This document shows, piece after piece, positions 16,976 to 21,934 of a stretch of DNA of 64,000 bases. The notes under the pieces are model-generated. The model did not search any database, was not told where the DNA came from, and saw only the letters and a program-made list of their open reading frames with translations. Numbering within the stretch: position 1 is the stretch's first letter; every line of letters begins with the position of its first letter. The DNA comes from Bordetella genomosp. 1. GTDB taxonomy: Bacteria; Pseudomonadota; Gammaproteobacteria; Burkholderiales; Burkholderiaceae_B. The position numbers and the translations under genes were made by a program. The stretch covers positions 434,001 through 498,000 of the forward strand of contig NZ_NEVL01000001.1 in assembly GCF_002261335.1 (NCBI RefSeq), given 5' to 3'.

Positions 16976-19249
<2,274 letters not shown>

Positions 19250-19331
19250 CCGCCCGCGTGTCCGCATGCGCTCGCGCTTGCGGGTGCGCCGCCCGCCGTC
19301 GTCCCTCCGCTGCTTTTCCTTCTGCCCCGCA

Positions 19332-21395
19332 ATGTCCCAAGATACCCCGATCGGCCATGGCCTGAATCCCGCCCAGAAAGAGGCGGTGCTGTATCTGGAC
19401 GGCCCCTGCCTGGTGCTGGCCGGCGCCGGCAGCGGCAAGACCCGCGTGATCACGCAGAAGATCGCCTACCTGCTGCGCGAATGCGGCTATATGGGCCGCA
19501 ACGTCGTGGCCCTCACCTTCACCAACAAGGCCGCGCGCGAGATGGCCGAGCGCGTGAAGGAGATCGTCGACCGCAAGCTCGCCAAGGGGCTCACGATCTC
19601 GACCTTCCATGCGCTGGGCGTGAAGCTGTTGCGCGAAGAGGCCGTGCACGCCGGCCTCAAGCCCACCTTTTCGATCCTGGATGCCGACGACGCGCTCGCG
19701 ATCATCCAGGAGCTGCTCGCCACCACGGACCGGAACCGCCTGCGCGAAGTGCAGGGCATCATCTCGCTCTGGAAAAACGCGCTGCTCGAGCCCGACCAGG
19801 CCGCCAACGTGGCCGTCACGCCGACCGAGGTCGAGGCGGTGCACATCTATCGCAGCTATGCCGCCACGCTCGCGGCCTACCAGGCGGTCGACTTCGACGA
19901 CCTGATCCGCATCCCGGCATTGCTGCTCGAGAGCAACGAGGAGGTCCGCACGCGCTGGCAGAATCGCGTGCGCTACCTGCTGGTCGACGAATACCAGGAC
20001 ACCAACGTGTGCCAATACCGCCTGGTGCAGCTGCTCACCGGCATGCGCGCGATGTTCACGGCCGTGGGCGACGACGACCAGGCGATCTACGCCTGGCGCG
20101 GCGCCACCATCGAAAACCTGGCCAAGCTCACCACCGACTACGACAACCTCAAGCTCATCAAGCTCGAGCAGAACTACCGCTCGGTGCAGCGCATCCTGCA
20201 CGCGGCCAACAACGTGATCGAGCGCAATCCCAAGCTGTTCGAGAAAAAACTCTGGTCCGACCTGGGCTACGGCGAGCCGATCCAGGTCACGGCCATGGAG
20301 GGCGACGAGCACGAGGCCGAGTCGATCGGCATGAAGCTCTCGGCCGCGCGCTTCGAACGCCAGGCCGAGTGGCGCGACTTCGCCATTCTCTACCGCAGCA
20401 ACCATCAATCGCGCATTCTCGAGCAGGCGCTGCGCAACCTGAAGATCCCGTACACGATCTCGGGCGGCCAGAGCTTCTTCGACAAGGCCGAGGTGCGCGA
20501 CATCCTGGCCTATTTGCGGCTGGTGGCCAACGACGAAGACGATCCGGCCTTCATCCGCGCCGCCACCACGCCCAAGCGCGGCATCGGGCAGGCCACGCTG
20601 CAGGTGCTGGGCACCTACGCGGCCGGCCGCCAGATATCGCTGCTGGCCGCGGTGGCCGAGAGCGGCATCGAGGCGCAGCTCGCGCCGCGCCAGCTCGAAC
20701 CGCTGCGCACCTTTGCCGAGTTCATCCGTCGCATCCAGTGGCGCGCCGGCCGCGGCGCCGACGGCAGCAGCACGCGCGCGGCCGAGCCCGCGGGCCCGCT
20801 GCTCGACGATCTCGTCGAGGCGATCCAATACGAGCGCTACCTCTACGACATGTTCGACGAACGGCCGGCGCAGACGCGCTGGCAGAACGTGCTGGAGCTC
20901 ACCGGCTGGCTCAAGCGCAAGGCCGATGAAGACGGCATGACGCTGTTCGAGCTGGTGCAGCACGTCGCGCTGGTGACCATGCTGGAGCGCGGCGAGGACG
21001 AGGAGGAGCCCGACGCGGTCAAGCTCTCGACCCTGCACGCGTCCAAGGGTCTCGAGTATCCGCACGTCTATCTGGCCGGCGTCGAGGAAGGGCTGCTGCC
21101 CCACCTCGGCCGCGACGAGGAAGACACCGACCCCGACAGCGCCGCCAATTCGCTGGCCGTGCGCATCCAGGAAGAGCGCCGGCTGATGTACGTGGGCATC
21201 ACGCGCGCCAAGCGCAGCCTGCATCTGTCCTGGTGCAAGCGCCGCCGCCGCGCCCGCGAAGATCGCGCCTGCGAACCCTCGCGCTTCATCGAAGAGATGG
21301 GCCTGGAGCAACCCGGCATCGTCGAAGACGACGCCACCGCCGCCCTCACCCCCAAGGCCCGCCTCGACATGCTCAAGGCCCTGCTGAAGAAGTAA
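19332..21395 (+). CDS. rep: ATP-dependent DNA helicase, Rep/UvrD family
   Basis: 687 aa from the ATG at 19332 (MSQDTPIGHGLNPAQKEAVLY); the open frame further upstream lies inside priA. Superfamily 1A motifs appear in order: Q motif LNPAQKEAV, Walker A AGAGSGKTRVI, motif Ia TFTNKAAREM, DEYQDTN (II), GDDDQAIYAWRGA (III), QNYRS (IV), STLHASKGLEYPHVYLAG (V) and YVGITRAKRSL (VI). Length and the NVVALTFTNKAAREMAER text favour Rep over UvrD, but the two are hard to separate by eye. It unwinds 3' to 5' and helps fork progression. Position next to priA makes a small replication-restart cluster. Confidence 0.88.
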   Translation: MSQDTPIGHGLNPAQKEAVLYLDGPCLVLAGAGSGKTRVITQKIAYLLRECGYMGRNVVALTFTNKAAREMAERVKEIVDRKLAKGLTISTFHALGVKLLREEAVHAGLKPTFSILDADDALAIIQELLATTDRNRLREVQGIISLWKNALLEPDQAANVAVTPTEVEAVHIYRSYAATLAAYQAVDFDDLIRIPALLLESNEEVRTRWQNRVRYLLVDEYQDTNVCQYRLVQLLTGMRAMFTAVGDDDQAIYAWRGATIENLAKLTTDYDNLKLIKLEQNYRSVQRILHAANNVIERNPKLFEKKLWSDLGYGEPIQVTAMEGDEHEAESIGMKLSAARFERQAEWRDFAILYRSNHQSRILEQALRNLKIPYTISGGQSFFDKAEVRDILAYLRLVANDEDDPAFIRAATTPKRGIGQATLQVLGTYAAGRQISLLAAVAESGIEAQLAPRQLEPLRTFAEFIRRIQWRAGRGADGSSTRAAEPAGPLLDDLVEAIQYERYLYDMFDERPAQTRWQNVLELTGWLKRKADEDGMTLFELVQHVALVTMLERGEDEEEPDAVKLSTLHASKGLEYPHVYLAGVEEGLLPHLGRDEEDTDPDSAANSLAVRIQEERRLMYVGITRAKRSLHLSWCKRRRRAREDRACEPSRFIEEMGLEQPGIVEDDATAALTPKARLDMLKALLKK

Positions 21396-21428
21396 CCCGA
21401 GCCCCCGCGCCGCCTGCCGCCCCACCCC

Positions 21429-21866
21429 GAAAAGGTGTCAGACTGCATTTATCGAAAAGGTGTCAGACTGCATTTTCCCGGCCGCCCCGCGTGCGCCGAA
21501 AAATGTAGTCTGACACCTTTGTTTTAGGCCCCGCGGACTGCAGTGGTGCTGTCGAACGCGCGGTTCGGGAAATGCAGTCTGACTCATTTTTTCAGGGGGC
21601 GCCGCGTCGACTCCACGCAACCCCCGAGGGCCCGTCCTTCTTCATCGCGATGCATCGCTCGGCGCGCGTAGACCCGTCGAAAAGGTGTCAGACTGCATTT
21701 ATCGAAAAGGTGTCAGACTGCATTTTTCCAGCCGCCCCGCGTGCGCGGAAAATGTAGTCTGACACCTTCGTTTTGGGCGTCGCGGGCCGCTGTGGTGCGG
21801 TCGAACGCGCGGTTCGGAAAATGCAGTCTGACTCCATTATCAGAAAATGCAGTCTGACTCATTTTT
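21429..21866. repeat. Duplicated array of GTCAGACTGCATTT-type repeats
   Basis: Nine copies of a ~20-nt element sit in 440 nt. The direct form (AAAAGGTGTCAGACTGCATT) is at 21430-21450, 21455-21475, 21680-21700 and 21705-21727. The inverted form with ACACC (AAATGTAGTCTGACACC) is at 21499-21520 and 21749-21768. An inverted variant ending in GACTC (AAATGCAGTCTGACTC) is at 21570-21592, 21818-21838 and 21843-21866. Copies 1-4 (21429-21592) and copies 5-8 (21679-21838) are two versions of one ~165-nt block, alike also between the repeats, so the block was duplicated. The gap 21396-21934 holds nothing else recognisable. The design resembles REP-type elements mobilised by IS200-like (RAYT) transposases, but no such gene is in the window. 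Confidence 0.85.
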
Positions 21867-21934
21867 GGGCGCTCCTTTTCGGGCGCGCTCTTCCTGCGAG
21901 CGGGTGGCGGATGCGGCGCCAGGGGAAGCGGGAG

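Follow-up and report, generated by a model that had tools for sequence, protein, structure and literature searches.

A very-high-copy, non-palindromic repeat of Bordetella genomosp. 1 fits the terminal inverted repeats of a TIRYT-type tyrosine transposase

The window, a stretch of 64,000 nucleotides of the Bordetella genomosp. 1 genome, corresponds to positions 434001-498000 of contig C3 in an assembly of 5.6 Mb and 7 contigs. A UvrD/Rep-type helicase gene (18906..21395, + strand; Pfam PF00580/PF13361) and a convergent gene with a CPCC domain (Cys_rich_CPCC, PF14206; 21935..22330, - strand) leave 539 nt between their stop codons (21396..21934). Both neighbours had been named in the initial annotation and were confirmed by Pfam. 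With up to 2 mismatches the motif GTCAGACTGCATTT was found nine times in the window, always inside 21437-21858, compared with 0.09 expected matches. None of 100 shuffles reached nine, the largest number in a shuffle being one, and the nine-copy array described at 21429..21866 was thereby borne out. Seven copies are exact and two carry a G to A exchange at position 9. Their order along the array is > > < < and then > > < < <.

The array contains two blocks of about 158 nt, which match end to end. Block 1 (21428..21585) has cores at 21437-21450 (+), 21462-21475 (+), 21501-21514 (-) and 21570-21583 (-). Block 2 (21678..21834), a diverged duplicate, has them at 21687-21700 (+), 21712-21725 (+), 21750-21763 (-) and 21819-21832 (-). 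The ninth core (21845..21858, -) lies outside the duplicated block. Within the block, a 75-nt family (96% identity, spacing 250 nt) and an 89-nt family (89% identity, spacing 249 nt) were detected. Thus, the duplication suspected at first was found, with blocks shorter than the ~165 nt proposed and one copy outside them. Each block holds two direct copies, one inverted copy ending ACACC and one ending GACTC, as described. The text between the repeats is also duplicated inside the blocks, but no repeat was reported for the 92 nt between them. Hairpins had been predicted from the paired orientation, and the convergent pairs do fold as single-stranded DNA. The pair of block 1 (21455..21522, +) gives a long hairpin of -26.6 kcal/mol (z -10.6) and the corresponding pair of block 2 (21705..21771, +) one of -23.4 kcal/mol (z -8.9). 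A scan covering only loops of 3-8 called no terminator-like site in the array. At gathering thresholds, the sole Rfam match in the window was a tRNA elsewhere. ARAGORN called a tRNA-Pro inside the helicase gene on the opposite strand (20307-20399), which is probably spurious because Rfam does not report it.

The conservation of element and spacers was compared in six duplicated pairs, two of which (L138 and L148) may not be true duplicates. The element, recognised by its similarity to the core, differs at 4 of 335 positions and the spacers at 56 of 363 (Fisher p 6e-13). For the window pair alone the values are 1 of 76 and 11 of 81. This contrast suggests that the element is either under constraint or homogenised.

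A consensus of about 25 nt, AACAAAGG(T/a)GTCAGACT(G/a)CA(T/a)TT(T/a)(T/C), was obtained from 192 copies in 38 arrays among the matches listed. It is non-palindromic, and a single unit is unfolded as single-stranded DNA (MFE -0.5 and z +0.9 for the consensus; 0 kcal/mol and z +0.8 for the unit of the window). REPs are defined by a palindrome and a GT(A/G)G head (Nunvar et al. 2010, PMC2817692), neither of which this unit has. A strict REP/BIME identity was rejected, since single units are non-palindromic, do not fold and are without a GTAG/GTGG head. The sequences GGTGTCAG and GGAGTCAG fit GGGGWSAS at 7 of 8 positions, and several TIRs of relatives fit it exactly; this motif is described as common to some TIRs only (Di Nocera et al. 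2013, PMC3733652). The repeat is consistent with being a terminal inverted repeat (TIR) that belongs to a TIRYT-type transposase of subclass 2.1. Six strings of repeat letters did not occur in the literature searched. Two papers on Bordetella repeats seemingly describe other elements (about 90 bp; palindromic, 26-30 bp).

The motif is not confined to the window. Genome-wide, GTCAGACTGCATTT gave 391 matches with up to 2 mismatches (205+186), the reversed-pattern control 0+2, and inverted pairing recurs as anticipated. Array statistics were derived from the matches listed (100 of the 391 positions). They cover both strands of C1-C3 and, on C4, only those exact copies that point right and lie within the first 457 kb; the array analysis was confined to these parts of the genome, and mismatched single copies were dropped. 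As left-only arrays of C4 can be missing, the statistics for all arrays lean slightly to right-pointing starts. Polarity and clustering were also determined for C1-C3 alone, where both strands are fully listed. With gene calls from our own codon-usage caller, all 38 arrays among the matches listed are intergenic, except for one overlapping the end of the RAYT gene.

Most of the arrays point inwards. Neighbouring copies among the matches listed are oriented >> in 60, << in 50, >< in 34 and <> in 10 cases. At the ends of the 36 multi-copy arrays listed, 25 are >...<, 6 >...>, 4 <...< and 1 the reverse; for the 21 multi-copy arrays of C1-C3 the numbers are 18, 2, 1 and 0. Copies of the same direction among the matches listed are spaced by 42-44 nt in 58 of 110 and by 24-26 nt in 23 of 110 cases. 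On C1-C3 these spacings account for 18 and 19 of 61, so that C4 contributes more of the 43/44-nt steps. Among the matches listed, 34 spacers belong to 43-nt steps, and no two of them are alike. Their inner mean identity is 0.367 (shuffled: mean 0.316, maximum 0.336); hence they are not wholly random, and to call them unrelated would be too strong. Arrays L135 and L152 consist of exact tandem 44-nt repeats with identical spacers. No avoidance of perfect pairing was seen between convergent neighbours, as 17 of the 34 among the matches listed differ in subtype, with 17.5 expected. Furthermore, the arrays cluster: among the matches listed 19 of 34 gaps are below 7 kb (random mean 5.2, maximum 13 in 2000), and with the analysis restricted to C1-C3 this holds for 8 of 19 gaps (mean 1.7, maximum 6).

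For the window site and five genome stretches synteny was compared with one sister species, and for one stretch with the whole genus. Of the relatives, the sister species G010 stands closest, with 89% across the last part of the helicase gene. The stop codons of its helicase and CPCC genes are 6 nt apart, versus 539 nt here, and the array is absent. None of the 13 remaining genus genomes showed the CPCC gene next to the helicase gene (one such locus has under 100 nt there). We infer an insertion in the present genome; as only G010 informs the polarity at this site, the array may instead have been deleted in G010. No copy is present in the G010 stretches that correspond by synteny to L141, L148 and L149, and for L142 and L136 synteny with G010 was too broken to read. 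Neither movement nor a target-site duplication of the kind left by a MITE was seen, the flanks of the empty sites read in G010 being too diverged to reveal a duplication.

A RAYT transposase had been suggested as the mobilising enzyme and, as noted then, is not encoded in the window. The genome has a single Y1_Tnp (RAYT) gene that scores above the Pfam cut-off, and it lies on contig C4 (PF01797, 49.9 bits, cut-off 23; NF047646, 82.6, cut-off 80). Near-identical multi-copy transposase genes were not found. An assignment to IS200 was rejected (NCBIfam IS200 model, 22.2 bits, cut-off 55). In a protein search a second, divergent match appeared in this genome, its place not being listed. The protein encoded on C4 has about 238 aa with intact catalytic motifs (NHVH and YIELNP) and a C-terminal extension, for which no HTH family was detected in Pfam at E up to 1. 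In the structure model of a relative, C-terminal helices are predicted at 169-181, 186-198 and 205-215. An RGRP tail is present in most of 21 aligned sequences. Three direct copies (>) of the element lie upstream of the gene and four inverted copies (<) downstream. The order in the arrays mirrors this locus (> > > gene < < < <), as if they were its two ends minus the gene. The gene sits in a 10.9-kb stretch (L149:5592-16485; C4:309592-320485) that is missing from G010 at this place; array copies are located near both ends of the stretch.

Related repeats and transposases were examined in other genomes. With up to 2 mismatches, 13 of the 14 other genus genomes gave 5-28 matches (reversed controls 2-15) and G010 gave 49 (reversed control 7). 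A stricter exact pattern was present in 18 of 268 family genomes, with 238 copies in the window genome, 25 in G015, 16 in G010 and 15 each in G020 and G044. A close RAYT gene or remnant was detected in 22 of the 268 (E up to 2.2e-35; next 4e-28). At least five exact copies occur in nine of the 268 genomes, eight of which also have a close RAYT (Fisher p 5e-9), although two of these eight (G015 and G057) match only the last half of the protein. Among the genomes with any exact copy, nine of 18 have a close RAYT (p 9e-7). These p values are only a guide, because the genomes are related. Where a close RAYT is present (22 genomes), fewer than five copies were counted in 14 genomes and none at all in 13 of these; the count refers to exact copies of this version of the motif. 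In G010, the exact copies (C2, C6, C9; L173-L176) occur without a close RAYT gene and are possibly orphaned after gene loss. Copies without a close gene and close genes without copies are both compatible with loss or divergence, yet they make the association of gene and repeat less firm.

The nearest relatives, two Achromobacter strains, have AAGGTGTCAGACTACGTTTT flanking the gene on both sides. Inverted repeats around RAYT genes were scored with simple base shuffles for 46 of 80 relative loci plus the own locus. A score of at least 14 was reached by 23 of the 46 loci, versus a maximum of 13 in 235 shuffles. By eye, a GG-G-(A/T)C core can be seen in nearly all of these 23. Scores are lower for the remaining 23, most of which show no clear repeat by this test. 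In G020 (L181, C48), two tandem RAYT copies each lie between one > and one < motif copy. This arrangement is a simpler form of the repeat-flanked RAYT unit.

Taken as a whole, the repeat most probably (about 0.8) represents the TIR of a Y1 HUH transposase, namely a TIRYT/RAYT of the subclass 2.1 type of Quentin, whose ends spread in trans and grew into arrays. The gene unit on C4 would have the form TIR-TIR-TIR > gene < TIR-TIR-TIR-TIR, and end copies minus the gene would have spread to many intergenic sites. The transposase would act on single-stranded DNA, probably at replication forks, and recognise either the hairpin of a convergent pair or each unit by its C-terminal domain. After a cut by the tyrosine, the ends would be rejoined elsewhere. 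Local growth by tandem and block duplication could then give the mostly inward-pointing arrays with a nearly invariant element, although growth within a locus may be ordinary recombination and not the work of the RAYT. The window array would be one insertion, duplicated later as a block. Of the mobilisation proposed in the initial annotation, the genome-wide family tied to a RAYT gene was found, and neither of the outcomes named there as refuting it, a motif restricted to this site or a genome lacking a RAYT gene, was observed; movement itself is presumed from this arrangement.

The TIRYTs or TIRtrons are similarly described as tyrosine transposase genes flanked by non-REP inverted repeats, with TIR dimers or clusters elsewhere in the genome and a GGGGWSAS-like core (PMC3733652). 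Their TIR families are termed moderately abundant there. Here 391 matches were counted, the motif departs from GGGGWSAS at one position, and the copies form head-to-tail arrays, often of 43/44-nt period and mostly inward-pointing. The length, both catalytic motifs and the C-terminal extension of the protein agree with TnpA-REP subclass 2.1 (Quentin et al. 2018, PMC6006769), which corresponds to Bertels group 1 and features a helix-turn-helix-like C-terminal extension. The cited study reports no REP-like sequences near subclass 2.1 genes. In contrast, a non-palindromic repeat is amplified genome-wide here, so that a subclass reported without REPs has a very-high-copy partner repeat. With IS200/IS605 the protein shares the HUH/Y1 catalytic fold, as modelled for a relative, but the single PF01797 match, the score below the IS200 cut-off and a unit without hairpin are different.

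That these repeats are conventional GTAG-type REP/BIME elements which a RAYT mobilises, as first proposed, is very unlikely. Such elements are likewise described as high-copy intergenic repeats, inverted around the transposase and with a copy number tied to the gene (Nunvar et al. 2010, PMC2817692), and inverted pairs and a cognate Y1 transposase between inverted copies were indeed found here. However, the single unit is non-palindromic and lacks a GT(A/G)G head in front of a stem. In addition, BIMEs alternate in orientation, whereas neighbours among the matches listed run mostly in the same direction, as > > > < < <. Recombination or slippage alone, without a transposase, is extremely improbable. 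The exact tandem repeats of L135 and L152 demonstrate that simple duplication occurs, but this would leave unexplained why the repeat is found at so many sites, why its copies flank the RAYT gene in inverted orientation and why related motifs occur at the genes of relatives.

The arrays could instead serve the host as bidirectional terminators, protectors of mRNA 3' ends or binding arrays for nucleoid proteins, with both element and spacing maintained by selection and with a purely historical link to the transposase. The element is far more conserved than the spacers, spacings of 42-44 and 24-26 nt are preferred among the matches listed, and intergenic arrays with strong hairpins of convergent pairs would suit such functions. 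Nevertheless, we regard a host role as unlikely. Homogenisation or recent spread could equally conserve the element, the window array has no terminator-like site with a loop of 3-8, it is absent from the orthologous site of the sister species, and high copy number is seen in only one of 15 genus genomes.

A further rival reading is that arrays carry host genes. In L141 (3651-10605, C2), near-identical arrays sharing a 73-nt direct match bracket 6.7-6.9 kb with genes for a gluconolactonase-like protein, an ABC permease, an ATPase, a periplasmic binding protein and a GntR regulator. The flanks (RelA/SpoT-type and transporter genes) are 29-57 nt apart in G010, G004, G005, G007 and G009; the other 9 genus genomes matched one flank only. 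With 20 candidate places scored for each of the 14 genus genomes, the cargo had no match in any of them at E up to 1e-30, suggesting, not proving, a captured operon. In L138 (C1), a single LigT-like gene is enclosed by two arrays that share a long inverted match. These two are the most similar of 703 array pairs among the matches listed, and both are neighbours; the arrays also cluster. It is nonetheless doubtful that arrays are the ends of larger mobile units, which bracket and carry host genes like composite transposons. Only one clear case has an empty site, and for 16 of the 19 neighbouring pairs among the matches listed the scores (18-30) do not stand out from those of the other pairs (median 25). 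Since arrays settle between genes, it would be no great surprise if they came to lie on either side of an island, and the same observations could result from local hopping or from recombination between arrays. Equally tentative is the more general notion that inward-pointing, fixed-period end arrays of an HUH transposase act in pairs as movable brackets, capturing and inserting whole operons as a composite mobile system without a dedicated insertion sequence. The spreading of short repeats by RAYTs is described as still poorly understood for REPs (PMC8266576), and the literature consulted deals mainly with palindromic REPs. The gene, its dispersed ends, the array-less sister sites compared and relatives of lower copy number provide a compact test case for enzyme-repeat recognition and gene carriage by arrays.

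Some RAYT match of any kind was obtained for 218 of the 268 family genomes, and many hold a divergent relative of about 30% identity. In the one copy read, that of G010 (L178, C10:58900-60600, minus), NHVH is replaced by NDRI and YIELNP by WLETYP, and the RGRPRK tail is kept. Because both catalytic motifs are gone, this looks like a catalytically dead RAYT-like protein, which may be conserved.
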